Source: Ulota crispa | Lineage: Eukaryota > Streptophyta > Bryopsida > Orthotrichales > Orthotrichaceae | Length of the DNA: 64,000 nucleotides | Assembly: GCA_963920765.1 (NCBI GenBank) | Contig: OY987242.1 | Span: 28,482,002-28,546,001, forward strand | Direction of reading: 5' to 3' | Shown here: piece by piece, positions 2,739 through 60,957 of the stretch | Layout of the letters: the number at the start of each line of letters is the position of its first letter | Position numbering within the stretch: the first letter of the stretch is position 1 | The notes under the pieces: model-generated | What the model saw: the letters and a program-made list of their open reading frames with translations, nothing else | Database searches by the model: none | What the model was told of the DNA's origin: nothing | Made by a program: the position numbers and the translations under genes

Positions 2739-3634
2739 AGTGTTGGAGAGATGACATTTTTTATAAACATGGTATAGTCAAAGTCAACATATGAAATAGG
2801 ACACTCTTGCATTTCAATCAACTTTATCTATTGGAGGAGGAAAAAATGCCAAATTTTGAGTAGAATACCATATCATCTTCGTAGAGCCTCACGCTCACTT
2901 TTATTTGGCTAATGTACAGTGCCCTCCAACAAGTACGCCCAGCTTTGTCATTCAAAGAACTTTCCTTACATAGAACATAATTGGCATTTTTTTTGTTTTT
3001 AATCTTAGAAATTTGATCCTTATGCAATCTCAATCTAGCATATTAAATTTTGATTCCTCAAAATCAAAACCCTATTTTTGGTGAATTGTTATGTATTGAA
3101 TTCATGTTTTTACATGATAATTGATTGAAAAAAATTCGTGATAAGTTTTTGAGATTTGATTGCATGCGTATGTAGGAAACATCTCCACTCACAAATTCTA
3201 TGCTAAAAAGGACCCCCTTAAGTAACAATAATTTGAATTACAAATATTTCAATAGGATTCGTGATGTGCCCAAATTTTGAAATATAGATATTTCTCTATG
3301 ATATTCAAATTTTGCTATTTGATTCATACATTGTGACTAGGTTTGTACCTTTGCACATGATGTTATGTTTACTTGGTGAAAATCTTGTAAAAAGCTTGTT
3401 AAAAAATAAAGAAAGAGCAAGAGGACTCTGTTCAAAAAACATGAGGACTTATTGGAGGCCACCGTACAATATAAAATTTGACACTTTTGATCCATAGATA
3501 TATTTAGAGGATTAACACAAAAAAATTGCATAAGTAGTACTTGCATTTCCAAGTATGTGGTGTTGACATACATATGGACTATTGTATCTGAACAACTTGG
3601 TTTGGCACATCCTAGCCACATGTGTAAATTTTGA

Positions 3635-4715
3635 CCCCTAAAGGACCAACTGTCCCTCGGGGGACAAATGGGATTTTGGGCATGTACCTATGGCTAAATT
3701 ACTTTGTGTGATTTTTTGAAACTTTTATGGACAATGGGGAATTCAAAGATCTATGTGGGCATCTCATTTTTTCTTCATTCTGACATTTATTGAAGAAGTT
3801 ATTCAAACAAGGGAAGGCGAGCAGCCCAAAAATTTCTTAAAATTTGCATTTTATATAGGGAATTGCTAAAGCCACACGCCCGCATCCAAAATTGCTAACG
3901 CCACACCCCCAAGGTGTGCTTTGAGCATGATCTATGAGAATTTAATGTTAGTTTTTAAATTTAGATCAAAAGGGTTGTTTGACATTTATCATTCTAACTC
4001 TATATTCAAAAAAAATTGGAGGTGCTTGAATTTGAAACTAAAAATATAGGACTTTTGAAATATTTAAAGGAAAAACACATCAAAAAATGCCAATGGTGCA
4101 ATAAATGTTCAACAAAAAATTGCAATTGTTTTTCTTTCATTCAAGAAGGTGGTAATGTCTTGATTGAACAAATGATGGACCACTGGACCAAAAAAAAAAC
4201 ATTAAATTTGCAAAATACATGATTACAGGGGTGTGGCGTTAGTAATTTTGGGTGTGGCTTTAGCAATTCCCTATTTATATATATATATATGTATGAAATA
4301 GGTTCCTTAGACTTATATATAGGTGTGGAGCTTTGAATCATTCAATTTTGATAGATGGGATGAAAGTTATGAGAAGTTTTTGTTTGTAGGTAGGTATTGT
4401 TTCTATGAAAATCACATCTACCCGCAAACAAAAACTTCTCACAACTTTCATTTCATCAATCAAAATTGAATGATTCAAAGCTCCACACTATATATAAGTC
4501 TAAAGAACCTATTTCATACCTTCCCTTGTTTTCCATCGATTAATTTTTAACTTCTTCAATAACTGTCAGAATGAAGAAAAATTTAGATGCCCACGTAGAT
4601 CTTTGAATTCCCCATCATCCATAAAAGTGTCAAAAAATCACACAAAGTAGTTTATCCATAGGTACATGTACAAATTCCATTTGTCCCCCCAAAAGGGGGC
4701 TTGGTCCTTTAGGGG
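3635..4715 (+). mobile_element. piggyBac-like MITE, family A, copy A1
   Basis: The left end CCCCTAAAGGACC follows TTGA (3631-3634). The right end GGTCCTTTAGGGG precedes TTAA (4716-4719). The tetranucleotides differ at one base, consistent with an aged TTAA duplication. Both halves carry the same subterminal sequence inverted, for example GATCTATGTGGGCATCT at 3749 and AGATGCCCACGTAGATC near 4586, so this copy is a large fold-back. The TA-flanked element B1 is inserted inside it. It has no coding capacity. Confidence 0.85.
3858..4271. mobile_element. TA-flanked MITE, family B, copy B1 (nested in A1)
   Basis: The terminal inverted repeats GGGAATTGCTAAAGCCACAC and GTGTGGCTTTAGCAATTCCC are almost perfect and continue inward to about 40 bp through AAAATTGCTAACGCCACACC. 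The element sits between TA dinucleotides (3856-3857 and 4272-4273). That fits a Tc1/mariner-type duplication, but the flanking TATA tract makes the exact duplication ambiguous. Related copies are at 31733 and 39313. Confidence 0.8.
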
Positions 4716-5020
4716 TTAAACAAGACTCAACAAATCATATATCCTCAAGTATACTAAGGTTTCTAAAGAAAATCCTTTGTTCCTAATACAAAAGAATTGA
4801 AAGTTTGAATTCCTTGATAATTTGGCCTATTTTTTGATTTATTTTCAACAAATCTTGTCTTGAAGGTACACTATTCCAGCATCAATAGTGAAGGGTTGAG
4901 TTGGAAGTTAAAAGAGAGATAAAGATGTTAATTATTACATATGGCATCTTGTTAGATAACACTTGGAATGTCACTTTGACAATCTTTAGAGAAACTATTT
5001 TGCCATATAGGCGTTGTAAT

Positions 5021-5150
5021 TACTACAAGAAAATCACGGTCGAATTTACAAAAAGTTGACAAAGATTGTGACCTAATCTACAATATATTGTAGACTAGGT
5101 CACAATCTTTGTCAACTTTTTGTAGGTTCGACCATGATTTTCTTGTAGTG
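5021..5150. mobile_element. CACTA-like mini-element (fold-back)
   Basis: This 130 bp segment is almost one palindrome. The right end reads, on the minus strand, CACTACAAGAAAATCATGG. The left end reads TACTACAAGAAAATCACGG. CACTACAAGAAAA is the usual terminus of plant CACTA (En/Spm) transposons. The flanking triplets AAT and CAT agree at two of three bases, compatible with a 3 bp duplication. There is no room for a gene. Confidence 0.7.
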
Positions 5151-7345
5151 CATGAGGGAGGTTGCAAAGAAACAACCTATCCATTACAAATAGTAACCAG
5201 TGCTTGTGGTTGGAGTACATGCCAACAAAAAGTTTTGAAGCAATATTTTGAAGCACATTATTACGCATGACAAATGAACCAAAAAACGTGGTCAACAACA
5301 TCATGGCAACAACGGAGCTTGTTTAAAGAGGAAAAAGGAACATTTTTTTGTAGCAAAGAGGAGCACCAACTTTACAAAAGCTACCTATATGTCGTGTGAG
5401 ATCATATGCAAGAGAATTGATAGTGTATGCAAGCATTCTGGAGACAGATGAAGAAGTCTTATCAATTGCATTGGTCCATAAGGAGAAGAAAGAAACTAGC
5501 CAAATATTTGAAGACCATATGGAGTAACATCTAGCAGGACGTGACAAAATTCATTGGTGTGTACAAAGACATTCTTGGGGTGCAAGAGTCTAGGAGTGAG
5601 CAAAGCAACGTCTTTGATTGTGCATTCTAGTTTTATAAGAGCAAGCATCCAAAGCAACATTTTTTTTGTTTTGTAATTTGTTGGCTAATCCTTATGGACG
5701 TGTTTTATTGGACAAATTTGGTAGAGGAGTTTAAGCAAATTGCACTATTGTGTCTTTTATTGTGGCAATGCTAAAGGAGAGAGAGTCAATTTTTGTAGTT
5801 ACTAAATTTAATGCTAGCATTGCCAAATATGACAAGGACAACCCTGAAGATTTTACCTGAAGAAGCAAACAAAGAGGCTGTATTTACCCATTAGAAAAAA
5901 AGGCAATAAAACAAGACCTTTGGAATTGAACATTGAAGGAGGTGTCTTTAAGAGCTCAAACTTGTGCCATTGCACATATGAAGGTACCAAATTTGAAGAA
6001 AGCATAAATTTTGTAAGACCAAGTTGAGCTTTCAATTTTCAATATGTTTGACAAGGAAAAACTTTTTGCGCGTGCTCAAGAGTATTTGTAAATAAGGAGG
6101 GACAAGAAACTGATAAATCATTGCTAATGTGTTATCCAAGCAAAAGGGAGATTGGCAAGAGAAGAGGCAAATTAATGCAAAAAGGAAAAACAAATAATAC
6201 AAACCCAAAAAAGTCTTTGCCGAACGAAGCACACAATTTTCTTGCACCCTTGTTGTTGGATCTATATTCAAATTTGGTTATTGTAAAGACTACAATTGAA
6301 TTTTCCAATACAACACCCCAGCCATGAACTACTCTAGATGCAGCACCAACACACCTCTTGCTGCTAGCAACATTGGAGCAAAAGATAAAGGTGGAGAAAA
6401 CAATGCCTTCACAAAGAACAAGGTATTGCACCATGCATTGCAAGGAATATTCATGGCAAACGAGAAGCCTCAAGACTTGCCAACAAGCAATTTTGTCAAT
6501 CAACAGCACTTGTCTTTTTAGCTGCAAACGCACATTGCAAAGTTTCAGATTTTAAAAATGGCAACTAGAACATTTTTTCTTCAAACTCAATGTTTTTTCA
6601 AAAGGTGATGTTGCTAAATTTTGCAACTTGAGAGGTTCAAGAAAAAAAGTCCTTGAATTCATGTTTAGAAATTCAAATGATTCAAAATTAGCTCAAAGAT
6701 TATTTTTAACTATAGTTTTGCTAATTAGCATGTCATTTGGTGTTAAGATTTTTGTATTTGGCAATTATCACATTCATAGTATTTCAAGTACGCTTTTATA
6801 GAAAGTTGAAAAGGGGCACGGTTACCATGACCATGACCTCAACTTAAATGCATACTTGTAGATTGGGCTCAAAATTTTGGATTTGTCTCATTAATAGTTT
6901 AGGTTGAATGTGGTTGGTTGGGATTAATTGTGAATAAATGGGATTTCTTGGGATTTAGATCAGCAATTTTCAACTTGTTTTATCTAATATGCCACAATGG
7001 CTCAAACCGGGGCTAATTTGGGTTTTATTGCTTTGAACGCTAACTTGATTTGATTTGAACTACATAACAGTAAATTATAATAATTGAGATTAATGGAAGT
7101 TGTATGTTGTTACTTGTTGCTCTTGAATTAATAGTATTTGAATTTGGACGTATTACAATAATTGTGCTTGATGTTCAAGTGGATTTGACAATGCTAATGG
7201 AGTTTTGAGTAGTGATGCCACTCCAAAGCAATATTTCATTTTCCGTGTTGTAATCACACATAATGGTTGGGTCTTACTTCAAAGTACATGGATCTCAAAG
7301 AATTTGCATGAAGAATGCATTGCAACTTGCCGTATAACCTTTGTA
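5151..7345. other. Intergenic stretch, no recognised gene
   Basis: Several short frames of about 50-130 codons occur on both strands between about 5300 and 6550. None shows a domain I recognise, and they are broken by stops without good splice sites. It could be a decayed gene or transposon. I assign no function. Confidence 0.4.
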
Positions 7346-7349
7346 CTAA

Positions 7350-8298
7350 CCCCTAAAGGACCAAGCCCTTTTTTCTTTGAAAATCACTGAAAATTGTCAC
7401 TTTTGGAAGAATGAGTAGAAAGGTAGAAGAAAAGGCTTTTTTGAAAATTTAACCATAGGATCTTGCCCTAGACTATGGGAGGTACTTGTTGGAAAAAACT
7501 CAGCTCATTCTAGTTTGAGAGAAGTGAGATTTCACATCTGAAGTGAAAACAAAAGTTTTTTCACTGCTGCCCAAAAATTTCAAAAGCCTTTGATTGCCTC
7601 TAAATCAAAAAAATTGCTCTACACAAAGTTGAGGTTTATTTTTCCCATGTAGAAGACCAAGTTAGGTAAATGTGGGAGAATTTTCAAATGAAACAAAGGT
7701 GTAAATCATACTTTGTAAAATCCTGCAATGACGTAAAGTCATGAAATTTGCATATACACTAGGCAAAATTGGAGGATTTATGTAAAATTCAAAAACCCAA
7801 TTTACTTTGATCCAAATGGTGAAAACCAAGGAATCTTAGTCTACTACATCTTGGAAAAATAAAAGTCAGAAAACAAATTCACAAAGAGCTCAAAAAAGTA
7901 AAGCAACAAGTTTTACAAGGGGGAAAAGGAATAGAGGTTTGAGAATCCCATACCTACCCGCAAACTAAAACTTCTCATAACTTTCATCTCATCTATCAGA
8001 ATTGAATGATTCAAAAAATTTCACGTATATAAAAATCTAAAGAACCAATTTGAGATATTTATTAAAAAAAAACACAATTTTTGAATTTTTTTTGGGCTGC
8101 CTGCCCTCACCCTTTTTCAGAAATTCATGCATAACCTCTTCAATAAATGTCAAAATGAAGAAAAAATTAGATGCCCACGTAGATCTTTGAATTGCCCACC
8201 TTCCATAAAAGTTTCAAAAAATCACAAAAAGTAGATTAGCTATAGGTACATGCCCGAAATCCATTTGTCCCCCGAGGGGACAGTTGGTCCTTTAGGGG
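7350..8298 (-). mobile_element. piggyBac-like MITE, family A, copy A2
   Basis: Ends are CCCCTAAAGGACC (7350) and GGTCCTTTAGGGG (ending 8298). They are flanked on both sides by the same tetranucleotide, CTAA (7346-7349 and 8299-8302). An identical non-TTAA duplication is strong evidence that these are the true ends. Length is 949 bp, close to A3 and A4. The end carrying the palindromic subterminal block GTCCCC..GGGGAC is on the right, so this copy is inverted relative to A3. Confidence 0.9.
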
Positions 8299-8302
8299 CT
8301 AA

Positions 8303-10186: not shown

Positions 10187-11543
10187 GGTAGGAGGCTCGA
10201 AAAGCAACCATTTAACCCCTAAAAGACCAATTGTCCCCTCAGGGGACAAATGGATTTTGGGCATGTACCTATAGCTAATCTACTTTTTGTGATTTTTTGA
10301 AATTTTTTTTGAAGGTGGGCAATTCAAAGATCTACATGGGCATCTAATTTTTTCTTCATTCTGACATTTATTGAAGAAGTTATGCATGAATTTCTGAAAA
10401 AGGGCAAGGGTGGGCAGCCCAAAAAAAAATTCAAAAACTGTATTATTTTAAAATAAAAATCTGAAATTGGTTCTTTAGATTTTTATATTTGTGGAAATCT
10501 TTGAATCATTCAATTTTGATTGATGAAATGAAAGTTATGAGAGGTTTTAGTTTGCGGGTAGGTATGGGACTCCCAAACCTCCATTCTTTTAGCCCCTTGT
10601 AAACTTTGTTACTTTACTTTTTGAGCTCTTTGTATTTTTTTTTTACTTTCTTTTTCCAAGTTATAGTATACTAAGATTCCTTGGATTTTACCATTTGGAT
10701 CAAAGTAACTCAGATTTCTAATTTTACATAAATCCTCCAACTTTGCCTAGTGTATATGCAAATTTCATGACCTTACGACATTGCAAAATTTTACAAAGTA
10801 TGATTCACACCTCCAATGCATTTGAAAATTCTCTCACATTTACCCAACTTGGTCTTCTACATGGAAAAAATAAACCTCAACTTTGCATAGAGCAATTTTT
10901 TTGATATAGGAGCCATCAAAGGCTTCTGAAATTTTTGGGCAATAGGGAAAAAAACTCTATTTTTCACTTCAGATGTCAATATCTCACTTGTCTACTTCTA
11001 GAATGAGCTGCAATTTTTCCCACAAGTACCTCCCATAGTCTAGGGCAAGATCTTACGGTTGAATTTTCAAAATAATTTTTTTTCCTATCTTTGTACTCAT
11101 TTCCTTAAAAGTGGCAATTTTCAGTGATTTTCAAAGAAAAAAGGGCTTGGTCTTTTAGGGGTTAAGGGCTGATCTGCTTTTTCATGGTCTTCTCCATACC
11201 AAAAGATTTTTGTGTAATTTGCAAACAAAGAGAAATGGATGCTAAATGTAACCTAGTTTTTTTCATATTTTTGAGGCATTGTTGAATTGTTGATGAATTT
11301 TCAAAAAAAATTATAGTAGGTACCTATTTATGATTCTAGATCTCTCATAAACCGTCCTCCTATAATTTATAAAGAGATTAGGTGAAATCAAGACTTGTGA
11401 TTGACTCTTGCAATAAAAGGCACCTTTTCTTTTAAGACTAAGGAGGATCCATTTAGGAACAACCTCATATCCATTCTTGGACTACCTATGGGACTCATTT
11501 TTTGATAGGGGTCTGACAGGGGTCGCTTTTCAAGCCTCTTACC
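10187..11543. mobile_element. GGTAGG-ended element, family J, copy J1 (host of A3)
   Basis: The left end GGTAGGAGGCTCGAAAAGC at 10187 matches, inverted, the right end GCTTTTCAAGCCTCTTACC ending 11543, with two mismatches. TTAA follows on the right and ACAA precedes on the left, so the duplication is imperfect. About 950 bp of it is the later insertion A3. Without A3 the element is about 410 bp. Copies or fragments with the same end lie at 26147 and 58669. Confidence 0.75.
10217..11161 (+). mobile_element. piggyBac-like MITE, family A, copy A3 (nested in J1)
   Basis: TTAA (10213-10216), then CCCCTAAAAGACCAATTGTCC; the right end reads GGTCTTTTAGGGG, then TTAA (11162-11165). Length is 945 bp. 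Most of its length is the reverse complement of A2 and A4. A subterminal palindrome TGTCCCCTCAGGGGACA follows the left end. No coding capacity. Confidence 0.9.
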
Positions 11544-11547
11544 TTAA

Positions 11548-20034: not shown

Positions 20035-20038
20035 TTAA

Positions 20039-20962
20039 CCCTTTAGTGACAGTCAACCATTTGGGGGCATCTCAAATCTTCACTATATGGTCTGCAAAAC
20101 ATATTCAAGGATAAAGTATGTGTTTCTAAAATTAGATTGGACCAGACATATCAAAGCTATAAACTTTGGCAACATGAATATATATATAAAAGTTTAATTT
20201 ATCGGAATAATTCCGTGTGAGGATTGTGAGAAGTTTGATGATCCAAAAAAATTTGTTGTGCTAAAACGTGAGACACTCTAACTAATTAGTGTCAATTGTG
20301 CAATTGAAACTTTTGATAGTGGTGAAATTTGTAAAAGTTATTGCTCCATTCTAGGTTACTGCTCTTCTAAAAAATACAAAATTCGAGTCAATTTGTGCAT
20401 TTCACGGCATGATTTGTGAAATTGAGCATTGGAAGAATACGAACATGGCCACACATACACGTTTGAATACAGCATGCATGGAACATGTTTCCACAAAATC
20501 CGATTGGTCAATATCATCTACATTGGATGTCATTTGAGGTACAACGTCCCACATTTAGCATTGCAAACCTTTGGAGCCTAAAATTTCATGGAATACGCAA
20601 TGTTGTAGCTAAAATACGCCACAAGTAGAACTTCTAAATAAACCATGCATCTTTCGCACAACTACTAGAGAGTTAGTACCAAATGCTTTGGGTGCAATAT
20701 GTGGGCTTTGGGGCCATGTCACAGTTGCACTGAATTAGTATTTCATTTGTTACACCCATATGAGATTCCCAGCTTCATATGTAAAACACGCATAGCTACC
20801 ATGTTTCTTTATGCCTTGCTTTGAAATTTGTTCAAGTAGGAGCACAAGTTGATGCCCCAACTCTGTTACGTTTTGTGTTTTTGCAAATTAGATAGAACAA
20901 AGATGACAAGAGCCACGGAGTACCAAAATCAACCCAAAAGTGGTCAACCGGGCATTAAAGGG
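20039..20962. mobile_element. piggyBac-like MITE, family F, copy F1
   Basis: TTAA (20035-20038), then CCCTTTAGTGACAGTCAACC. The right end reads GGTCAACCGGGCATTAAAGGG, then TTAA (20963-20966), which is also the left target copy of the next element, E1. The first ~8 bases of the ends (CCCTTTAG / CCCTTTAA) are inverted repeats, followed by a partial match. Length 924 bp, no gene. Confidence 0.75.
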
Positions 20963-20966
20963 TTAA

Positions 20967-21303
20967 CCCTTAAACATCGAGGAGGACAAAAAAACGTCCT
21001 CTTCCTCTGAAAAAATGTTATGCGTGACAAGAATCATTTAATTTTTTTTAGAAGTGAGCATAAACACATGGTGGCAAAAATTTATCTCATTAGATGCAGT
21101 CATATTTTTAGATAACCCAGATTGTGAGAAAATTCAAAGTGGCAGTGTTAGGACCCAAGTTGTTCTTATTGCAATTTTTATGGGGCAGCAAGTACTATTG
21201 ACTTTTGCAACCTTTAGAGTCAACACTAATGGTGCCCACCTTTGAAAAAACTGTAGAAGCTACAGTGTGGGGAGGCCGCGGTCACTCGCCCAATGCTTAA
21301 GGG
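20967..21303. mobile_element. piggyBac-like MITE, family E, copy E1
   Basis: It begins CCCTTAAACATCGAGG directly after the TTAA shared with F1 and ends CGCCCAATGCTTAAGGG before TTGA (21304-21307), one base off TTAA. The interior aligns with E2 and E3, for example the shared segments around AACACATGGT and CCCAAATTGTGAGAA or close variants. Length 337 bp. Confidence 0.85.
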
Positions 21304-23193: not shown

Positions 23194-23568
23194 CCCTTAA
23201 ACGCCTAAGCGGACAATTATCGTCTGCTGGCCATTAAAAAAACACTATGTAGAGCAGAAAAATGTTGTTTTTTGTTTTTTTGTTTTTTTGCAAAAGTGAT
23301 TAGAAACACATGGTCCATCAGAGAACACAAAAAACTATTTCATTAAATGCACTTATATTTTTAAGTAGCCCAAATTGTGAGAAATTCAAAGTCATGGGGT
23401 TATGTCTCGGCCAAGCTGCCCTTATTGTAATTTTCATGAGAGCACCATACACTATTTACTTTTGCAACTTTAAAAAAAATTTAACTAGAGTGCACCACTG
23501 TAAATGTCATTGTTCATTGTGCAATGCTGCAAATGGGCAGGCACGGCGATCACCCCGGCGTTTAGGGG
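23194..23568. mobile_element. piggyBac-like MITE, family E, copy E2
   Basis: TTAA (23190-23193), CCCTTAAACGCCTAAGCGG at the left; CACCCCGGCGTTTAGGGG at the right, then TTAA (23569-23572). Ends are inverted repeats over about 13 bases. The interior resembles E1 and E3. Length 375 bp. The frame 23310-23678 runs through its edge and is not a gene. Confidence 0.9.
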
Positions 23569-25498: not shown

Positions 25499-26142
25499 CC
25501 CCTCAAGGCCTAAAAAGACCAAAAATGTCCCTCCTTGTTTGTAATTTTGGATGCTAAATTTCTTCATGATTAATTAAAATGATTTCTTTTTTTTTCATTT
25601 CTTGTTGAAGTCTTGTTTCAGTATCAAAAGTCTGATTTTGAAGATGACTAGTTACTATTTTTATATTTAAGATTTTGTGCATGGGTGTCCATTGCAAATC
25701 TTCACTTTCTAGTGTTGAGAGCTCTTGGAAATGAGCCTAAAGTACACTAGAACTTGGAGAAAAAATCACATTAGAAACTTAATTTAAAAATTTGTGGAGT
25801 AGATTTTAAGAAGCCATAAATTGATTAGGGTTACACATGTTGTACTTTACATACTTGTATTTTTTTGGTATCCTCAATTTTAAATTTTAGATTTGAAAAG
25901 AGGACTGAAAGACTTCAAATCACTTTCACAATTTTAACACCTTTTTGATCAAATGTTATGATCTTTCAATCCATAAGTGATAATGTTATGTTTTCTTTTC
26001 CTATGTGATCTCTAACATATCTAGTTTGAATTTGTATGGTTACAATTTTTTTATAAATGATGCAACTTATCAAAATGTTGACATTTTGTTCATCCAAGAA
26101 CAGATTCTAAGATACTCGAGAAAGTGCATGGGCCTTGAGGGG
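25499..26142 (+). mobile_element. piggyBac-like MITE, family G, copy G1
   Basis: TTAA (25495-25498), CCCCTCAAGGCCTAAAAAG at the left; GCATGGGCCTTGAGGGG at the right, then TTAA (26143-26146). Ends are perfect inverted repeats over CCCCTCAAGGCC. Length 644 bp. It is related over its whole length to G2, in opposite orientation, and serves as the empty-site comparison for the palindrome inside G2. Confidence 0.9.
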
Positions 26143-26772: not shown

Positions 26773-27677
26773 CCCTTTAAGGACCACACCCATTTTCACA
26801 AAATTCACTAAAAATAGGGGCTGTAAGCTTAAATGTGCAATTAACTCAAATATGGACCCATTTTCAATAATCCAACCATACAAATGGGAAGTACACCTTG
26901 TTCACTTTAAAGCACCAAAGTTTTAGCTAGATCTATTGTTGGAGTTGAAACATTATAATGATTGAGTGAGCCGTATGCGGATAATCTCTAGTGTTTCATG
27001 CTTGTGTGGTTTTGAATGTTACCACTTCTTGTAGGCTTTGATTGAAAAGAGCCTAACATTTCTAGAAAGCAGAGTTTCCCACCTTTCCAACAAGACTAGT
27101 TTCACATAAAATAGACAAAAATAGCAATCACAAGGTGTAGCTAAGTGGACAAAAAGGGTCAAAAATCCCACTTTCTTTGCTATCCTAAAATAGTTCTATA
27201 AGAAATTTGATAATTATTTTGGAAAATCCAATTGGTGAAAACAATTAGGAATTGACCTAAAATGTAGGATGACAAATTTTAAAGATGAAATGACAACACC
27301 ATTTCAGTAGATCTCCAATACTACAATTATACGACTCTTGTATATGAAAACAAGACATGCATATTTCTTAAGCAATTTGAATTTTTTAGAATTGTGCAAT
27401 TGAAATTTGATATTCTTCTTGGATGTTTGATGTATTGTGTTGTTGCTTTGATGCTTCTTTGACAAAAAATGGATACATATTTTGAAGCCATGCCGTATAA
27501 ACACCATTATTTATCAACTCACATACTCAATTACATTTTTGTTTTTTTAGATGGATGCAAAATTCTTGTGATCACATGCGTTCTTCAAGACCAACTTCCA
27601 AATTATTAAGAAATTTCAACCTACAGGCCAGAAACCATTCCCAGCGACCAAAATATGGTCACATGGTCCTTAAAGAG
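26773..27677 (+). mobile_element. piggyBac-like MITE, family I, copy I1
   Basis: TTAA (26769-26772), CCCTTTAAGGACCACACCC at the left; CATGGTCCTTAAAGAG at the right, then TCAA (27678-27681). Ends match inverted over CYCTTTAAGGACCA. Length 905 bp. Copy I2 (35007-35905) is its reverse complement over most of its length. Confidence 0.85.
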
Positions 27678-31731: not shown

Positions 31732-31732
31732 A

Positions 31733-32143: not shown

Positions 32144-33076
32144 CCCCTAAATGCCCAAGGGTGTTTTTCTTGTTTTCGGAAGGTAGGTTTGAAATTTTTG
32201 ATTTGTCCTTGTAAGATCATTATTAAACATCAAAATAAAATTGTAACCATTGAATCTTGAACTTCAAGACTTCTAAATGGCGCTACCCAAAAAGAATCCA
32301 TAATGGCCGTGCGGATTTTAAGATATTTGCATTTGAATGACGATGAGAATATAATTTTTTGCTTTTTTTTGAGCTGCCCAAAACTTCTAATGCAAATTGG
32401 CAACTTCTAGATACAAAATTGGAAAACAACCACTTAGATTGCTTTAGTGTTTATTGTTGTTACTTCAATATCAATGGCCCCCCTTCCAAATCCATGACCA
32501 CAATTTCACAAATGAGCCTACAATGCAATTGCCAAAATGTAAATGTCTAATACAAAGAAATTTTTAGCTCCAATTATTAACCAATCATTATGAATGAAAG
32601 AATTTTCAATGGTGAAAGGATTCTAAATTTTATAACAAAGACATTCCAAGTGAAATTAGTCCAAAAGCACTTTTGGATTTTTTTAGATGTCAAAATTTTA
32701 ATAAAAAGGCCCTTTTTGCCCAAGGGAGTGCCCAAGGGAAATCTTCACCTTTTGCTCAACTTGATGCCCGCCTTTTCAATGTGGCAACTTCTCATAGGCT
32801 CCATGACACTATTCACAACACTATTCATGACACTATTCATGATACTATTCATGACACTATTCATGTCACAAAATGTATGCTTGTAGTTAACCTTCCACCA
32901 AAAACAATTGGAATAAGATATGGAGGAAGTTGAATTTGAACGGTGAAGTTAACTTGAGTGCGCAACTTTTCCAAAAAAAAGAACCTAAAAATGATACAAT
33001 CCGTACCTTCAACAGGGTTTCAAAAAATTTTGAAGTTTTTTGGACACCCAAATTGGGTGCCTTGGGCGTTTAGGGG
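32144..33076 (+). mobile_element. piggyBac-like MITE, family C, copy C1
   Basis: CCCCTAAATGCCCAAGGGTG at the left and GGTGCCTTGGGCGTTTAGGGG at the right are inverted repeats of about 17 bp. Both flanks are TTAT (32140-32143 and 33077-33080), an identical non-TTAA duplication that fixes the boundaries. Length 933 bp. It contains a short minisatellite (32801-32865). C2 (58662-60368) is a longer relative carrying nested insertions. Confidence 0.92.
32801..32865. repeat. 15 bp minisatellite, about four units
   Basis: Repeats of CATGACACTATTCAT with single-base changes, inside C1. In C2 (near 60089-60130) the corresponding stretch has only two or three degenerate units, so it has expanded or contracted since the copies split. 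Confidence 0.85.
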
Positions 33077-34681: not shown

Positions 34682-35006
34682 CATCAAGTATAGCTAGACA
34701 CGGTCTCATGGGATCAACCATTAGGCAATTTTATTTTTTTGGGAAGAAATCACATCAAAGTCCAAAATCCATATTGTGAACTACTACCCAAATTATCAAA
34801 CATGAGATTCACAATGGTGGGGATTTTGCAAATTTAGTTGGATTTGAAATCAGACTAGCCTTAAACTTTTGGTTTATAGTTGGGTGTAGAATGATTGGTT
34901 TGGATTGTGTGAATACTTGTTCAACTTTCTAAAAATTGAGGGAATGTGTTGAAGGTTCCATATTGGAGGTATGCTAAATTTTCTTAGCAAGACGCTTTGG
35001 GGTTAA

Positions 35007-35905
35007 GGACCACGCAACCATATTTTAGTTGCAGGGAGTGGTTTTTGGCCTATAGACTAATTGCTTAACAATTTGGAATTTGGTTTTGAAGAACGCATGT
35101 GATCACACAAATCTTTCATCCATCTAAAAAAATAACAATGGAATTGGGTATGTGAGTTGATAAATAATGGTGTTTATACATCATGACTTCAAAGTACGTA
35201 TCCATTTTTTTTGTCAAAGATGGATCAAAGCAACAACACAATACATCAAATACCCAAGAAAAATGTCAAGTTTCAATTGCACAATCCTAAAAAATCTCAA
35301 ATTGCTTAAGAAATATGCATGTCTTGTTTTCCTATACGGTAGCAATATAATTCAAGTATTTGAAGATTTGTTGAAATGGTGTTGTCATTTCATCTTTAAA
35401 ATTTGTCATCCTACATTTAAGGTCAATTCTTGAATGTTTCACCAATCAGATTTTTCATAACAATCACCAAATTTCTTGTAAAACTGTTTTAGGGTAGCAA
35501 AGAAAGTGGGATTTTTGACCCTTTTTGTCCACTTAGCTACACCTTGTGATTGTTATTTTAATCTACTTTGTGTGAAACTAGTCTTATTGGAAAGGTGGGA
35601 AACCCTGCTTTCTAGAAATGTTAGGCTCTTCTCAATCAAAGCTTGCATGAAGTGGTGACATTCAAAACCACACAAGCATGAAAAACTAAAGATTTTCCAT
35701 GTACTGCTCACTCAATCATTATAATATTTCACTTCCAAAGATAGATCTAGTTGAAATTTTGAGAAATTACAATGAACAAGATTTCCTTTGCATTTGTACG
35801 GTTGGATAATTAAAATTGGGTCCATATTTGATTCAACTGCACATCCAAATTTATTACCCTGGATTTTAGTGGATTTTGTGAAAATGGCTGTGGTCCTTAA
35901 AGGGT
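35007..35905 (-). mobile_element. piggyBac-like MITE, family I, copy I2
   Basis: The right end GTGGTCCTTAAAGGG precedes TTAA (35906-35909) and matches the left end of I1 inverted. The left side begins GGACCACGCAACCATATTTT right after the TTAA shared with H2; the expected leading CCCTTTAA is not separable from that junction. The interior is the reverse complement of I1. Confidence 0.75.
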
Positions 35906-39312: not shown

Positions 39313-39722
39313 GAGAATTGCTAAAGTCACACCTAAAATTGCTAAAGCCACACCCCAAGGTATGCTTTGAGCATGAAATGTGACAATTAAATGCTGATTT
39401 TTTTGATTTGGATTAAAAGATTTGTTTCACCCCTATCATTCTAAAACTATATTCTAAAAAATTGGAGGTGCTTGAATTTGAAACTAAAAATAAAGGATTT
39501 TTGAGTTATTAAAAGCTAAAATACATTAAAAAAAATTTGCAATGGTGCCATAAAAATTCAACAAAATTTTGTATTTGTTCTTCTTTCTTTCAAGGAGGCA
39601 ATAATGCAATGATTGGATGAATGATGGACCATTTGAATTAAAAAAAATAGCATTAGATTCTCAAAATACTTACTCACAAGGGTGTGGCGTTAGTAATTTT
39701 GGGTGTAGCTTTAACAATTCCC
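39313..39722. mobile_element. TA-flanked MITE, family B, copy B3
   Basis: Ends GAGAATTGCTAAAGTCACACC and GGGTGTAGCTTTAACAATTCCC are inverted repeats with a few mismatches. TA flanks both sides (39311-39312, 39723-39724). It aligns with B1 along its length (410 versus 414 bp), same orientation. Confidence 0.85.
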
Positions 39723-39827
39723 TATTATATATTGTCAATCAGTTTATCAATTAACAGAAGTGTACACTTGAGAAAGCTTGAACTTGTTGGTACAGCTCAA
39801 TAGTAAAACTAAATGATTGGATTTTTA

Positions 39828-40190: not shown

Positions 40191-40215
40191 TTTAAATAAA
40201 AAGACACTAAACTAA

Positions 40216-40626
40216 GGGAATTGATATATGCATGCCGGGGGTTGATATTTGCACACCCTCTTGGAGTAAGTTTTAGATTTCTATCATCAAAAAGTTGGAT
40301 TTGAGAGTTTTGAATTTGGATTTGGACTTAGAGACCATGATTAAGTCTAGAGCCACAAAAAAAGTTGCAATTCAACAACACACAATGAAAAGGCTTATTG
40401 TCTTTTACAAACAATAGTAAAAGTAACACTTTTCCCCTAGCTAATTTTTTTCATTGGGTGTTGTTGCATTGTAATTTTTTTTAATGGTTCTAGACTAAAT
40501 CATGATCTCTAAGTCCAAATCTGAATTCAAAATTCTCAAATTCAGCTTTTTGACGGTAGAAGTCTAAAACTTACCCCCACGCGGGGTGTGCAAATATCAA
40601 ACCCTGGTGTGCATATATCAATTCCC
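40216..40626. mobile_element. MITE family K, copy K2
   Basis: GGGAATTGATATATGCATGCC at the left and GGTGTGCATATATCAATTCCC at the right. The 8 bp TAAACTAA is identical on both sides (40208-40215, 40627-40634). The 411 bp interior is homologous to K1, including the AATGAAAA(A/G)GCTTAT centre. The duplication is one base shorter than in K1, perhaps by a small deletion. Confidence 0.85.
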
Positions 40627-40634
40627 TAAACTAA

Positions 40635-42375: not shown

Positions 42376-45300
42376 CTAAGAGTCAAAACTCTGGGGCTTA
42401 CTGCTAGCGAAGACATTCCACACTACCGTCCCCGTTAAGTAAAAGAAAATTGATGGCGCAAAAAGTGCAAGCTGCACAACCAAACAAGAGATTGTCAACA
42501 ACATCGTCAAGATTAAGATCCAAACTAGAGAATAAGAATTCGTGGAAGGGGGAACCCCGATTAGAGTGTAGTGAGATGTTGATATAGCTTCTAGTTGCTA
42601 CCTAATCACGTCCGGTAAATTCAAGGTAGCCAATTAGAGTGTATCAATCTATCTGCCATACAATCAAGCATGGAACAAAAGGAAAGGTGATGGCAGCTGA
42701 CTACCCGAAAGTAAACCGACTCCGATGTCAAATGATAAAACCGTGTTTCCTCAGTAAAAATTAGACTACTTCAGAAACTTGTAGACAGCGCCATACAGCG
42801 AGCCTTTGTCATCCAAAACTAGTCTAAAATTCCTGAAATAGTCTATTTTGACAAAAAATCTGGCTGATAATGTTCAATGAATACAAATTCTGGTAGTGTT
42901 GCTTACATTCCATGAATGCGTCCTGTCCAGGATAATTCCCACGAGTGCGACGCCCAAAACCCCCGGGATTGCTCCTACAGTGTTGGTAATTCCCTGTGTC
43001 CAACATCCATCACCGACATCAAAGACAGAAGAAATGAGGTATGACATCCCAAATTAACCTCTTAAAAGGTTCACAGGACTTTATACGTTTCACTCTAACA
43101 GGATCAGCACCATTTCAGCAAACAAAGTTTCAAGGTCGTAAAGGTGAGCCTACGAAAACTTCGACAAATTCAACTGACATTTTAAGAAACAATGGGATTT
43201 TTCGCACAAGTCAATTCTTTCCGTCTTGGTGATACGTGTTTTTCTGAGCAGAAAGAACAAGCTCTCTGCTAACGAGATCCAAAACCTAGTGGCTTTTGCA
43301 TTTGTAAAACGATCTAGTTTAAGTGAAGCCTTGGTTTGAAAGAAATATGTAAAGGGAACCTTACCAGGAGGAGACTGGCATATTTTGGGGATATGTCTTG
43401 ATGTGTACAGTACAACCCTACACATCATGAGCAATGTCAGCTGCTGTGCGAACCTAACCTTAAAGTGCCCGAATATTGACAAGTGACCACTATTGTCATA
43501 GCTGAAAAACTTGAAATAGATTCTTTTGGGAAGCTTCAAGAGAAGTAACAAAGTGTACTCGTAGAACAAAGAAATATTACCTTACATTAACCCCTAAAGG
43601 ACCGCGGCCTTTTTCTGTGAATTTCAGTGTAAAACTGTCACTTTTGGGAGAGTGAGTAGAATAGAAAATAAAAACTTTTTTCGGAAAATCCAACTGTAGG
43701 ATCTTGGCCTAGACTATGGGAGGTACTTCTTGGGAAAAAATCAGCTCAATCTAAATGTTGAGGAGTGAGATATTTACATCCAAAGTGAAGAAAAAAGTTT
43801 TTTTCTTTACTGCCTGAAATTTTCAGAAGCCTTTGACCATTGATAACCCAAAAAAATTACTCTACGCAAAGTTGAGGATTTTTTTTTATCATGTCCAAAA
43901 CCAAGTTAGGTATGTGTGGGAGAATTTTCAGATGAATTGGACATGTGGATCATACTTTGTAAAATCCTGCAATGCCAGAAGGTCTAGAATTTTACAAATA
44001 CACTAGGTAAAATTGGAGGATTTATGTAAAATTTAGAAATCTGAATTACTTTGATCCAAAAGGTGAAAACCAAGGAATCTTAGTCTATTACAACTTGGAA
44101 AAAAAAAAGTAAAAAAACAAATACACAAAGAGCTCAAAAAAGTAAAGCAAAACGTTTTACAAGGGGGAAAAGGAATAGAGGTTTGGGAGTCCCATACCTA
44201 CCCGCAAACTAAAACTTCTCATAACTTTCATCTAATCTATCAAAATTGAATGATTCAAAGATGTCCACGTATATAAAAATCTAAAGAACCAATTTCAAAA
44301 AAAAAAAAAAAAAAATTTCAATTTTTCTTTTTGGCTGCCCGATAGTCCCCTATTTTTTAGTTATTCATGCATAACTTCTTCAATAAATGTCAGAATGAAG
44401 AAAAAATTACATTCCCATGTAGATCTTTGAATTCCTCACCTTCAATAAAAGTTTCAAAAAATCACGCAAAGTAGTTTAGCCATAGGTACATGCCCAAAAT
44501 CCCATTTGTCCCTAGAAGGGACAACGGTCCTTTAGGGGTTAACGAGTGACAATAATATACTGTAGAAATTAGCATAACAATCTACTGAACAACCTAATTT
44601 TAGCTTGGACATTTAGGAGTTACATTAAACGAATGAGACATTCAACTTGTCAAGCAAAGACCAGGACAATCAAGGTGATTTATGAAACATCAAACTAGGT
44701 ACAGTAGTGCCTGGTTAACATGAAGGCATCTGGACAAAATTTCTTTTCATCTTATGGAAGCATTCACCATAGCAAAGCCATGCTTCTAGACTTCCTCCCT
44801 GCATGTGGGGTGCCATAAAGGCAAATTTCTCTTACGTAGACACTTTTTGTTCATAAAGTAGCCCCTGGACATTAATGCAAGAGGTGCTTTTTTCTTATGG
44901 AAACATTTTTTCTTACCCAGGCAAAGAACACGTGTTCTTGGCCTGACTGGGACAGTCATGTTAGGGGAGCATTTTTGTTACATAGGTTAATCCTATGGAG
45001 GCACCACTGTAGTAGAAATAGTGAATTGCAGTTTCGAAAAACTACGTAACTTGGGGATGTAGGAACTGTACCAGCAAGAGTAAAACTTGATAAACCCATG
45101 CCTGAAGTGAGAATAGCAATGTCCACCCAGGGATTAACTTTTGGAGATACCATGGCAAAAGCCATGCATGTAGCAGCTGATAGAAACCCAATCGATTGAC
45201 AGACTTTCCTGATCTGACACGCACAGAGCAAAGCCCAGCCTTAATAGAGTTCCAAGTGAGAGCGATCTCATATACCCAAGTTGCTAAAGTAACCAAGCTA

Positions 45301-51134: not shown

Positions 51135-51138
51135 TTAA

Positions 51139-51209: not shown

Positions 51210-51213
51210 TTAA

Positions 51214-52382: not shown

Positions 52383-52386
52383 TTAA

Positions 52387-54973: not shown

Positions 54974-57159
54974 TCACCAGGCGGCGGGGTGCTGCTGTGT
55001 GATGCAGTGGATGTTGCCGGCGTTCAGCACCACCTCCCGCGAGCTCACCCCGACCACCTTGTACTCCGGCCCATACGCTTCCTGGATGATCTCCAGCGCT
55101 CGCTTGTCCGCCGCCGCTGCCACGCCGCCGAACTGCGGCACCACCACGCCACCGTTGGCGCAGTAGTGGTTGATGTACGTCGACGGCAGCCGCTCGCCCG
55201 CAATGCGCGGCACAAACCCCTTCTCCACGTACCCCTTTGCCAGCCCGTTCGCCTCCTTGAAGGTACGGAACAGCGGCGGCGGCCGCGGCAGCTTGATCAC
55301 CTCTAGCTTGCGCCCCTTGGCGTCCGTGGTGCTCGTCAGCCGCTCGTACGCGTCCATCGACACCTCGTACTGCGGATCGTCGTGGTCGTCGGTCCACGCC
55401 AGCAGCACCACGCCCGGGCGCACGAAGCAGCAGAAGTTGTCCACATGGCCGTTCACCACGCCGTCGTCGCCCATGATGCCGCGCCAGAACCAGATGACCT
55501 TCTCGAGCCCCAGGTAATCCTTCAGCACCCCCTCGATGCCCGCCTTGACCAGCTGCGGGTTGCGCGACGTGTGCAGCAGGCACTCCTCCGTGCACATCAG
55601 CGTCCTGCAATGCATGCCCATTCACAATGCCATCTGTCAATGCAGCAGCAGCTTGGTTGCAACGATCAAAGTGATCACATTGTGATGCAGGTACAAATGA
55701 CTTGTGATCATGCTATATAGAATGATCTGCGGAGATTACAATTTCCAACAATCCTTCAACAAAATGACCTGAGCATCAGTCCATTGGAGCTGCGTGCAGA
55801 GTCGTCAATCAGATTGCAATTAGACGCGGTGACCAGAGCTTGAAGTCGAGAAGTGCTGGCATGGCTTACCCTTGGCCGTCGGAGTGGATGGAGCCGCCCT
55901 CTAGGTGGATGGGTGCCTCGAATACCTCCAGGCCATTCATCTGCAGCAATGCTCGCCCCGCGTTGTGGTCCTTGTCCCAGGTGGGCATCATGGTGGGCAA
56001 GCCCAGCTTCTTCTTGAGCAGCCCGCCGTAGCAGTCGTAGTCCCAGTGCACTCCGGCTACCACCCGCTTCCCCGTGGCAGGGTCGTCCTTGGCTATGCAC
56101 TGCCGCCCCAAGCCGCACCAGATCATCGAGGAATCAGGAGAATTTCAGTTACATCGGAACTCATTCACGATCTCGCGAAAGGGGAACATGATCAATTCCC
56201 CGTGTCTACCATAGTAATTAAAATGCAGATGAATCATCGAACATATTGAATGCAGCAAGGAGCAAGAGATCTGATGCTATACTCAGCAGGAGAGCTTACC
56301 GAGGGTCCCCAATCGCGGGTCCAGCCGTCCTCAATTTCAAGCTCCACGACGGTAACATTGGGCGCGTCCTTGAGATACTCGCGGGCAACCGCCGCCGGCT
56401 GCAAGTGATCAAAATGGGTAAACAACACAATGAAATATAATCAACTTGTCACCAGGAGCTCTATCACGAGAACAGGATCGCAGCAACAAGTTAGCTATCT
56501 AAAATTGACTGAGCATGGATGCGGAATTGAAGAGTGGAACTGCAAAAAGCGGCTGTTATGATGTGCCAGGATCCCATAGGATAAGCAGTTTAACCCTTTA
56601 ACGACGAGGGTTCTGAATACACACTAGAATTCGACCCATTTTCTGGTTGCCTCGCCATTAAAGGGTTGTTAACTCATGATGAATGTTGAGCTGCTGCTGC
56701 TGCTGCGGTAGCTCGGAGTTACTCACCTCGCCCGGGTGAGCAAACATGGTGAGCGGCTCGAACTGGGAGATGGCCTTGGCGATGGCGGCGTACTGCGCCT
56801 GCGCCGGCTTCGCATTGTCCCTCCACAGATTGCCGTCGTACGGCCACCCCATCCAGCACCCCGCGTGCTTCTCGAATTCCCCTGTCGCCAATCACCACGT
56901 CCGGCCAATTTTTACCAAAATCAGCGACCACGCGTACTCCACGGTAGACATGGCACGCATTCTGGACTGATCATATTTAGAAACGGATGAGCACATGAAA
57001 CGCTAGAACTAATTCTCGAGACACCCACAGGAAGCTCGAATTTTAGCAACTGAACATCAAACTACGTTTCTCCCCGGCATGGCGGACACAAATTAGAACC
57101 CACGTACCGGGCATGGTGTACCCCAGCTCCTTGGGAGTAGGCTTCGTAGCCGCCGCCAT
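54974..57159 (-). CDS. AIH: Agmatine deiminase (agmatine iminohydrolase)
   Basis: Five exons join in phase to 388 residues: 57159-57108, 56881-56727, 56398-56300, 56099-55870, 55604-54974, all GT-AG. Arabidopsis AIH is about 383. The enzyme hydrolyses agmatine to N-carbamoylputrescine and ammonia in the arginine-decarboxylase route to putrescine. Visible family motifs: GYTMP and WMGWP (27-31) then WRDN; W-T-R97-D98-W-G-P; LEGGSIHSDGQG (168-179); GDD-VVNGHVDNFCCF with H232 and D234; and GNIHC379ITQQ with the expected catalytic Cys. The active-site loop reads RDWGPS where the Arabidopsis enzyme has RD-GPT. Exon 4 was started at the CAG acceptor before TGC (56099), which preserves phase; reading further upstream would add residues with no counterpart. 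Exons are clearly GC-rich compared with the transporter. Intron 2 contains a 72 bp MITE. No transit peptide; probably cytosolic. Confidence 0.93.
56594..56665. mobile_element. 72 bp piggyBac-like mini-element in AIH intron 2
   Basis: TTAA (56590-56593), CCCTTTAACGACGAGGG at the left; CCTCGCCATTAAAGGG at the right, then TTGT (56666-56669). Ends are inverted repeats over about 15 bp. The right flank differs from TTAA at two bases. The end sequence resembles family F. Confidence 0.75.
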
Positions 57160-58657: not shown

Positions 58658-58668
58658 TTAACCCCTAA

Positions 58669-58992
58669 GGTAGGAGGCTCATAAACCGACCATCTAAGGG
58701 CTGAAGCTGAATTCTGGGGAGGTGGAACTTATTGAAATATTTTTGAGTAAATTTTTCTTGAAAGAAAAGAAGATTTAGCATCTAACCCAAGTTGTTTTGT
58801 ACTTTTTGGAGCTTTTTGGAATTAGTTATGAAATTTTGAAGCTAAAGTGACATAGGGCTTTAAAACCACCCACCTCTTCAAATGTACACTATTTGTACAT
58901 TTTGGAAACTTGTGAAAAAGAGCATGTATAAGAGGAGTACATTTTAGAAGGTGGGCGGCTTAAGAGCCTAGACAATTTATGAGCCTCCTACC
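58669..58992. mobile_element. GGTAGG-ended element J2 nested in C2
   Basis: GGTAGGAGGCTCATAAACC at the left and TTTATGAGCCTCCTACC at the right are inverted repeats of about 17 bp. It splits the C2 terminus CCCCTAAATGCCC, with CTAA on the left (58665-58668) and TTAA on the right (58993-58996). The undisturbed C1 end shows CTAA as the original target, so a 4 bp duplication with one later change is supported. Confidence 0.88.
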
Positions 58993-59276
58993 TTAAATGC
59001 CCAAGGGTGCTTTTCTTGTTTTTGGAAGGCAATTTTCAAGTTTTGTATTGTCCAAGATCATTATTAAACATCAAAACAAAATTGTAACCATAGAATCTTG
59101 AACCTCAAGGCTTCTAGATGGTGCTATCCAAAAAAAATCCAAAATGGTCATGTGAATTTTAAGATATTTGTGATTGAATGTGTATGAGTATGGATTTTTT
59201 TGGTTTTTTTGGAGCTGCCCAAAACTTCTAATGCAAATTGGCAATTCTTGGATACAAAATTGGGAAACAACCGTTT

Positions 59277-59704
59277 GAGAAAATGTGGACTCACGAGAGG
59301 GTTGCCAGGAAATGGTTTAGGGGACCCAACATTGCATTTATTTTGTCCTTTACCCCTATTACTGTTTCAGGGGTACACTCAAAGTGCCAGAGGAGGGCAT
59401 AGGTGTTGGTACAAGAAAATCCATATTCAAATAGCCCAGGTCATGTAGTTTATTGTTATATTTTTAAAGTATTAGGGGTACACTCAAAGTACTAGAGGAG
59501 GGCAGAGGTGCTGGTACAAGAAAATCCATATTCAAATAGCCCAGGTCATGCAATTTATTGTTATAATATTACTTGTCCTACTCGGAAGTTAGAGAAGGTA
59601 GCAACATGTTTGTGTCAGGTAAGATGTACTTAGCTCATGTAGGCCTCTGTTAATAGCTGAAGATGTCAATCCTTGGCAGCCCTCTGGCAAGTCCAAATTT
59701 TCTC
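59277..59704. mobile_element. Inserted element with GAGAAAAT ends, probably Mutator-like
   Basis: Absent from C1 at the same site. Ends GAGAAAATGTGGACT and AGTCCAAATTTTCTC (with an intervening mismatch) are inverted repeats, with further matching GAGGG-TTGCC / GGCAGCCCTC inward. Beyond the right end, 10 extra bases (TAATGCATTT) before collinearity resumes imply a target duplication of about 9-10 bp, now diverged from the left flank ACAACCGTTT. Inside is a tandem duplication of about 105 bp (59370-59474 and 59475-59572). Confidence 0.7.
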
Positions 59705-60235
59705 TAATGCATTTAGGATGCTTTAGTGTTTACTGTTGTTACTTGAAAACAAGTGGCCCCCCTTCCAAATCCGTGACCACAATTTCACAAATTAATGAGC
59801 CTGCAACACAATTGTCAAAGCGCAATCGCCTAATACAAAGAATTTTTTTTAGCTTCAAGTCTAGACCAAAAATCATTATGAAAGAAAGAGAATTAAATGG
59901 TGAATGAATCCTAATTTTTATAACAAAGACGTTCCAAGTGAAATCAGTCCAAAAACACTTTTAGATTTTGTTAGATGACAAAAATTTCAGTAAAAGGGCC
60001 CTCACTGCCTAAGGGAGTGCCCAAGGGAAATCTTTACTTTTTCTCAACTTAATGCCTGTGTTTTCAATGTGACAACTTGTCATAGGCTTTGTGACACTAA
60101 TCATGACACTATTTACAACACTACTCAAGACACAATAGGTATACTGGAAGTTTAACCTCCACCAAAAACAATTGGATTAAGATATAGAGGAAATTAAAAT
60201 TGAGCACTAAAGTTAACTTATGCCCACAACTTCTC

Positions 60236-60236
<1 letters not shown>

Positions 60237-60278
<42 letters not shown>
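60237..60278. repeat. Poly-A tract, 42 bases
   Basis: An uninterrupted A run inside C2; the homologous site in C1 has a short A run. Length may vary with sequencing or assembly. Confidence 0.95.
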
Positions 60279-60279
<1 letters not shown>

Positions 60280-60372
60280 TAAAACAATCAAATCTACTCC
60301 TTCAATAGGGCTTCAAAATTTTCTGGAATTTTGCGAACACCCAAATTAGGTGTCTTGGCACTTAGGGGTTAA

Positions 60373-60723
60373 AGTACAAGTGGTGAGTAGTGCATAGTGA
60401 CTCATCAAGTATTGGGGCAAGATACAATGGCTTTCCTACCTAGAATTTACAAGTTTGGTTAACCTGTCCTGATTAATGTGTAAATTCCACATCTAGGATA
60501 AGTATGATGAAGTACAATAAGGACCAGTTTCCTTGGGCTCTGCTTGACCTAGTATCCCGAAGCCCTCCAAGATTTTCCATGGCCACTAACTTTGCGCTGG
60601 AGGTCCAAGACTAGGGTCCAGGCTCTGGCGTTGTTTTTTAGGCTTTGCGGGGTTGGAAGGCCTAGACCCCTCCTATCTTGGATCCTCACTTTTTGAAAAC
60701 TTTTAGAAATTTATCCATGTAGG
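60373..60723. other. Spacer
   Basis: No gene or repeat recognised between C2 and the D element. Confidence 0.4.
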
Positions 60724-60727
60724 TTAA

Positions 60728-60953
60728 CCCCTGAGCGCTCGGAGTTGTTTTAGGGTTTAGAAGAAAATGGGGGGTTTAATGGCCATCAAAGCTTAAAGAA
60801 TTACATCCAAAAAAAGTGACGGTAGGATTTGAAAAAAGACTATCTTCTCCGCTGATCGAGACCAACCAAGATTGTTTTCACCGTACTAAGAGAAAAAGTG
60901 AGATCAGGTGGTGGTCCCCAACGACAGAATCCCATTGCTGGGGCGCTCAGGGG
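60728..60953. mobile_element. piggyBac-like MITE, family D
   Basis: TTAA (60724-60727), CCCCTGAGCGCTCGGAG at the left; GCTGGGGCGCTCAGGGG at the right, then TTAA (60954-60957). Ends are perfect inverted repeats over CCCCTGAGCGC. Length 226 bp. A second left end of this family is at 52387. Confidence 0.88.
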
Positions 60954-60957
60954 TTAA

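Follow-up and report, generated by a model that had tools for sequence, protein, structure and literature searches.

A field of TTAA-flanked elements in a moss genome and their probable derivation from resident piggyBac-superfamily transposons

Introduction

We analyzed a 64,000-nt stretch of DNA from the moss Ulota crispa (the window; G000:C1:28482002-28546001, GC content 37.7%), part of a 274.8-Mb assembly of 157 contigs, in which short elements with CCC-starting ends lie close together at TTAA sites. piggyBac transposons are known mainly from animals, and piggyBac itself targets TTAA and has ends beginning CCC. A preliminary description, made from the window's sequence, had reported a dense field of TTAA elements with CCC(C)T...A(G)GGG ends, had noted that none encodes a transposase, and had read the field as belonging to the piggyBac superfamily. 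Examination of these elements, of their copies throughout the genome, and of the transposase genes found between related ends leads us to regard the window elements as very probably non-autonomous derivatives of piggyBac-superfamily transposons resident in the same genome, some being miniature inverted-repeat transposable elements (MITEs) and others internally deleted copies.

Results

Elements of the window and their flanks

Self-comparison of the window, together with inspection of ends, yielded 15 two-ended elements and further single ends. They are given below by window coordinates and strand, with flanking tetranucleotides separated by a slash; handles such as L025 denote individual loci of the genome.

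3635..4715, + strand: A1, family A, 1081 bp; flanks TTGA/TTAA; holds the segment 3840-4282
7350..8298, - strand: A2, family A, 949 bp; flanks CTAA/CTAA, a variant tetranucleotide duplicated
10216..11161, + strand: A3, family A, 946 bp; flanks TTAA/TTAA; served as the query for genome-wide copies
43591..44538, - strand: A4, family A, 948 bp; flanks TTAA/TTAA
51214..52382, + strand: A5, family A; flanks TTAA/TTAA; left end degenerate, with TTTCTAAAGG in place of CCCCTAAAGG
26773..27677, + strand: E1, family E; flanks TTAA/TCAA; ends CCCTTTAAGGACC and GGTCCTTAAAGAG
35004..35904, - strand: E2, family E; a single clear end, the outer AGGG/TTAA, the inner end being degenerate or interrupted
25499..26142, + strand: F1, family F, 644 bp; flanks TTAA/TTAA
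27744..29227, - strand: F2, family F, 1484 bp; flanks TTAA/TTAA; contains a nested palindromic element of ~840 bp
32144..33076, + strand: G1, family G, 933 bp; flanks TTAT/TTAT; matches the two ends of L012:1871-7608 over its first 546 bp and its last 132 bp
58662..60368, + strand: G2, family G; flanks TTAA/TTAA; a 328-bp TA-flanked insert in the left terminal repeat and a second insert of 438 bp
20039..20962, + strand: two-ended element; flanks TTAA/TTAA; ends CCCTTTAGTGAC / CCCTTTAATGCC, 12/20 alike
20967..21303, + strand: two-ended element; flanks TTAA/TTGA; shares the TTAA at 20963-20966 with the neighboring element
23194..23568, + strand: two-ended element, 375 bp; flanks TTAA/TTAA
51139..51209, + strand: 71-bp element; flanks TTAA/TTAA; adjoins A5, the TTAA at 51210-51213 being common to both
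60728..60953, + strand: two-ended element; flanks TTAA/TTAA; ends CCCCTGAGCGC, the left end agreeing at 14/16 with the 3' terminus of the transposase-bearing element at L025
52387..52402, + strand: single end CCCCTGAGCGCCCACA at TTAA, immediately beyond A5
56594..56609, + strand: single end CCCTTTAACGACGAGG at TTAA
33788..33803, + strand: single end CCCTAAAGGACCAAAG at TTAA, short by one base of the motif seen in family A

The flanking tetranucleotides are identical in 12 of the 15 two-ended elements (ten TTAA/TTAA, one CTAA/CTAA, and one TTAT/TTAT) and differ by one base in the other three (3635-4715, 20967-21303, and 26773-27677). The two variants, duplicated whole, are direct evidence for a duplicated unit of four bases. 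We considered a TA or TWA target duplication and set it aside, since entire tetranucleotides are duplicated.

Fifty CCC[CT]T ends (30 left, 20 right) adjoin TTAA or a one-base variant in the window, compared with a mean of 17.3 and a maximum of 27 across 60 first-order Markov simulations; about one third of the 50 could thus arise by chance. Six pairs of ends in the window agree in at least 15 of 20 bases, and no such pair occurred in any of the 60 simulations. These simulations and the reversed-pattern control given below led us to reject a chance origin of the window ends. The dense field originally described is therefore present, and, computed from coordinates, the elements plus their nested inserts occupy ~13-14 kb of the 64 kb. 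None of the at least 120 transposase-domain matches obtained by a PF13843 profile search of the genome falls within the window, in agreement with the initial observation that no element there encodes a transposase. A search of the window against Rfam returned no matches. Gene sequences in the window include an agmatine-deiminase-type sequence (PF04371) and GST.

Genome-wide copies and duplication of TTAA

We counted the terminal motif CCC[CT]TNARNGMCC genome-wide. Joined to TTAA (TTAACCCYTNARNGMCC), it occurs exactly 12,933 + 12,887 = 25,820 times, and the reversed-pattern control occurs 2 + 1 = 3 times. At two such ends per element, these counts would correspond to roughly 13,000 elements, an estimate in which mutated ends go uncounted and one-ended remnants are included. 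The perfect A-type terminus CCCCTAAAGGACCAA is present 5,336 times, with exactly TTAA just before it in 4,495 cases (84%).

Queried with A3 (10216-11161), the genome gave at least 45 family-A matches (40 of 9,318 candidate places scored); most of the matches listed, the query aside, cover nearly the whole 946 bp at 87-91% identity. Family E gave at least 40 matches (40 of 2,400 candidates scored). The flanks of such copies, set beforehand as the test that could refute the piggyBac reading, bore it out: TTAA lies on both sides of eight of ten family-A copies fetched (the others having ATAA/TTAA and AAAA/TCAA) and of three of six family-E copies, the remaining three being one base off on one side.

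To look for empty sites, we joined the two flanks of each of ten family-A copies at one target site and searched the ten junctions as a single query. Among the 45 matches listed (40 scored), 44 cover the junction from L032, with query and genome lengths equal in 43 and one base apart in one; the forty-fifth partly covers another junction, from L037. All eight of the L032 empty sites fetched read CTCTTTAAAAATTC, with a single TTAA, whereas the filled site has CTCTTTAA ahead of CCCCTA...TAGGGG and TTAAAAATTC after it. The single TTAA of the empty sites indicates that TTAA was duplicated by this family-A insertion; a comparison of allelic empty sites was among the checks that the preliminary description had proposed. 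TTAA duplication is shown by empty sites for one family-A insertion and by flanks for further copies; in the other families it is seen in the flanks only.

Divergence from the majority sequence of family A is ~4-9% (A4, 16%), and the copies differ from one another by 12% on average (13 copies). The commonest departures from that majority sequence are C>T and G>A, which account for 289 of 836 (L029-L038, A2-A4); methylation-driven decay is a possible cause of these changes and of the D346N substitution in transposases noted below.

Transposase genes of the piggyBac superfamily

The PF13843 (DDE_Tnp_1_7, piggyBac) search found at least 120 matches in the genome, all above the curated cut-off, with a best E value of 1.3e-73 (116 of 528 candidates were scored, and a few genes are split across two matches). 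Matches are present on every contig from C1 to C11. A phmmer comparison of one copy with the Protein Data Bank (PDB) returned 6x67_C, annotated "Transposase" (E 3.6e-20), and 9c0f_C, annotated "piggyBat transposase" (1.4e-16), with the catalytic motifs inside the alignments. The three catalytic aspartates, which we take to be D268, D346, and D447, are retained in 25, 18, and 20 of 26 aligned copies, respectively, and are altered or missing in the rest; a D450-type aspartate is present in 22 of the 26. At 13 of 20 loci a cysteine-rich zinc finger (C-x2-C-x7-C-x2-C..C..H) follows 177-207 nt past the domain, and the same finger was found at none of the 20 on the opposite strand. The coding elements of this moss thus specify a DDE_Tnp_1_7-family DDD transposase whose C terminus carries a cysteine-rich zinc finger. 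PF13843 had no match in 14 control genomes, a set that may include no plant and so is no test of plant distribution.

Ends of coding elements and their relation to transposase clades

The ends of coding elements were sought in 20 ten-kilobase loci around transposases, and 26 loci entered a comparison of 3' ends. Two paralogous, transposase-bearing pairs delimit the elements: L009 and L018 share 90% identity across 5,029 bp, and L022 and L024 share 89-93% across ~5.3 kb. In both pairs, similarity begins at the tetranucleotide ahead of CYC (TTAA in three loci, TTCA in L018) and ceases at the boundary between GGG and TTAA or one base beyond it; one of the left ends is CTCC. Coding elements are thus ~5-6 kb long and TTAA-flanked, with ends CCC[C/T]T...AGGG.

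In the 8 of 20 loci where both ends are recognizable, the two ends enclosing one transposase agree with each other better than shuffled ends do (1 of 20,000 shuffles as good). Moreover, transposase identity correlates with 3' end similarity (Mantel r 0.53, 0 of 20,000 permutations; 16 of 26 loci usable), and the correlation persists after removal of one member of each pair more than 70% identical (r 0.50, 7 of 20,000; 13 loci).

Window elements match transposase-bearing elements

The most direct connection between the window and a coding element is provided by G1. Its positions 1-546 match L012:1871-2420 (83%) and its positions 802-933 match L012:7478-7608 (70%), and the transposase domain lies between these two G1-like ends in a 5.7-kb element (L012:1871-7608). 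Because it matches both ends around the transposase, G1 is a relative of a coding element, shortened by internal deletion.

For family A, the match concerns the 3' side. The last ~445 bases, through the terminal base, are common to L051 (A2 504-949, 80%); L054 carries the same stretch (A4 500-948, 74%; A2 504-862, 78%), and L011 has collinear patches of it that likewise reach the terminal base (A2 706-773, 76%; A2 896-949, 81%). At L011, L051, and L054 the A-like stretch forms the 3' end of the transposase-bearing element.

By shared sequence, then, families A and G would belong with the clade group of L011, L012, L051, and L054. By ends only, CCCCTGAGCGCC ends would belong with the group of L010, L025, L026, and L056, and family E with that of L013 and L021.

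A conserved block upstream of the catalytic domain

A block of ~120 codons (L014:2425-2790 and equivalents) is conserved ahead of the catalytic domain in 17 of the 20 loci, L013 being counted because it matches L021. Among these 20, no such block was found in L011, L012, or L016; L011 and L012 are the two loci examined from the group parental to G and A. Searches found no Pfam family (two proteins) and no PDB match (one protein) for the block. Genome-wide it has 91 matches, 36 of which have a scored PF13843 match 1.4-4.5 kb downstream and 55 of which have none scored on that strand in the 8 kb that follow. We read the block as a predicted N-terminal exon of these transposases. At the orphan block L058/L062, inspection by eye showed an acidic coding stretch resembling the one found ahead of other copies, and tblastn with 26 transposases gave nothing significant over the following 4 kb (best E 0.051). 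Orphan blocks are read as putative truncated copies.

Nested and neighboring repeats

A different MITE, with ends AGGTAGGAGGCTC, occupies ~58667-58994 and is placed at TA in the left terminal repeat of G2; G1 represents the uninterrupted version of the repeat that it splits. From the TA duplication this MITE is probably Tc1/mariner-like. Similar starts occur at 10186 and 26146.

Near-palindromic (foldback) elements of ~820-870 bp lie at 28145-28981, within F2, and at 24495-25363. F1 supplies the empty site for the one nested in F2, and the two aligned arms overlap by 5 bases, which points to a short target duplication of a different kind. Two more palindromic elements of ~410 bp, related to each other, lie at 34003-34412 and 40215-40627.

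A segment of ~400-440 bp is present three times (3840-4282, 31725-32126, and 39295-39732; 78-82% alike) with GGGTGTGGCGTTAGTAATTTT repeats at one end. The first copy sits within A1, and the threefold segment is perhaps what the preliminary description called element D.

Outside the window, 46 of 48 PsaA/PsaB matches, mostly fragments, lie off the plastid-like contig C157 (112,500 bp), which looks like many plastid-to-nucleus insertions. PsaB from C157 itself scores highest against PDB entries 6l35/7xqp, 8htu, and 7ksq/7kux (1710-1712 bits), which are photosystem I of the moss Physcomitrium, with 9lut next (1673.5 bits).

Discussion

Our data indicate that the elements of this moss window very probably derive from piggyBac-superfamily transposons of the same genome, an assignment first proposed from the window's sequence and strengthened here by parents elsewhere in the genome that encode DDE_Tnp_1_7 transposases and have matching ends. 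Drawing on the known mechanism of piggyBac, the transposase would cut at the terminal repeats through hairpin excision, the donor would be rejoined seamlessly at TTAA, and the copy would be inserted at a fresh TTAA that is duplicated in the process. Short copies that keep only the ends would be moved in trans. Distinct transposase clades would carry distinct terminal-repeat variants, and on this basis the window families are provisionally assigned to clades.

Several observations weigh against this account. Two recognizable ends are absent from 12 of the 20 coding loci, and 10 of 26 loci have no recognizable 3' end. Clear empty sites were found for one of the ten family-A insertions tested; the eight junctions without a match among the 40 scored are no evidence against those insertions. 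Stand-alone A copies, whole or partial, occur in many of 28 loci, and the region separating the domain from the A-like stretch in L051 and L054 shows patchy alignment only, so that a truncated A copy could conceivably lie at the ends of L051, L054, and L011. The 5' half of A matched no coding element examined, and families E and F and the small two-ended elements are tied to transposases by end sequence only. The divergence of family-A copies from their majority sequence and from one another implies that the family-A burst is old rather than recent. Most of the at least 120 PF13843 matches contain internal stops, which indicates that many transposase copies are dead, and several copies lack a catalytic aspartate, with D346 replaced by N in 7 of 26. 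Movement is inferred from sequence, and no transposition event was observed.

The alternative that best survives is that the elements belong to another TTAA-duplicating superfamily and that the piggyBac transposases are merely unrelated neighbors. Kolobok, Sola3, and some Chapaev elements target TTAA, and TTAA duplication alone does not separate superfamilies. Families besides A and G are linked to piggyBac by their ends alone, and although the parents examined carry PF13843, no search was aimed at Kolobok, Sola3, or Chapaev transposases. Set against this, both ends of G1 and the 3' end of A match elements with a PF13843 gene between their ends, paralogous coding elements finish at the same motif, and end sequence follows transposase clade. 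This explanation is largely refuted for G and A, and we consider it very unlikely overall. The superfamily of the parental transposase, which the preliminary description had proposed as a check, proved to be piggyBac in the parents examined.

It is also hard to sustain that PIF/Harbinger (TTA/TAA) or Tc1/mariner (TA) MITEs were mistaken for TTAA elements. TTAA contains TA, TTA, and TAA, such MITEs are common in plants (in the available text of PMC12550479), and a TA-flanked family exists in the window, inside G2. Yet the variant flanks CTAA/CTAA and TTAT/TTAT are duplicated as entire tetranucleotides, exactly TTAA precedes 84% of perfect A-type termini, removal of the element with one TTAA restores the empty site, and the parents carry a piggyBac transposase. 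Finally, contamination or very recent transfer from an animal in place of a resident population, to which the prominence of piggyBac in animals might point, is scarcely credible for copies that match on every contig from C1 to C11, are decayed and diverged (nearest neighbors 43-84% identical in protein sequence; 16 compared), and are tied to ~13,000 forward and 13,000 reverse ends. An ancient transfer remains compatible with their divergence, decay, and spread.

The moss elements resemble Trichoplusia ni piggyBac and Myotis piggyBat in the DDD catalytic domain (6x67 and 9c0f matched by sequence), the C-terminal cysteine-rich finger, the TTAA target, and the CCC-starting ends. They differ from both in their plant host, in the upstream block present at 17 of 20 loci, and in the terminal motif CCC[CT]TNARNGMCC; at ~5-6 kb the coding elements are also longer than T. 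ni piggyBac (2472 bp in the accessible portion of PMC10140906). Daphnia Pokey with mPok1 and mPok2 likewise combines a piggyBac-superfamily element with non-autonomous derivatives (PMC4912750 and PMC3849761, in excerpt), again unlike the moss elements in host. In the parts of PMC12550479 available to us, plant MITEs are similarly short, non-coding, high in copy number, and bounded by terminal inverted repeats, and they differ from the moss elements, which have TTAA duplication and piggyBac parents. piggyBac transposons with MITEs are thus a known kind; what is unusual here is the land-plant host, the scale, the co-variation of ends with transposases, and the upstream block.

The preliminary description had suggested that such elements are seldom described in land plants, and this fits the literature covered, with caveats. 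Among the open-access papers listed, none is, by title and abstract start, an account of native piggyBac elements in bryophytes; subscription journals lie mostly outside this coverage, and prior reports may exist. The moss paper PMC10619864 was set aside, the matching word in the text seen being "piggybacking". As for land plants at large, passages of PMC10813416, PMC8086355, and PMC10140906 state in general terms that plants harbor piggyBac, a plant review places it among class II superfamilies (PMC10794571, in part), a fern repeat table lists 1,230 PiggyBac copies totaling 122 kb (PMC6890710, in part), and a Stipa genome paper mentions piggyBac once in the portion available (PMC8319324). A MITE survey of 207 plant genomes, bryophytes supplying four of them, recognizes five superfamilies plus Micron, with neither "TTAA" nor piggyBac in the portion of its text available (PMC12550479). 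Because that scheme, as far as this portion goes, has no class for piggyBac, piggyBac elements may be misfiled or missed in plant annotations.

More tentatively, and at slightly less than even likelihood in our judgment, this moss, or mosses, may hold a long-resident piggyBac branch of their own. In such a branch most clades would have an added upstream domain (with a motif around W-RYLFYRQIAKLLGW, lying 1.4-4.5 kb ahead of the catalytic domain and found in no Pfam family or solved structure), clades would have co-varying ends, and thousands of MITEs would make piggyBac a leading class of DNA transposons in a plant genome. Failure to find the block in L011, L012, and L016 lowers our estimate for this proposal.

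A large, old, and diversified piggyBac population in a land plant makes it testable whether these transposons descended vertically in plants or entered by transfer. It likewise opens to test the co-evolution of transposase clades with terminal repeats and the role of the upstream domain, and a plant-derived piggyBac could serve as a tool for plant genetics.

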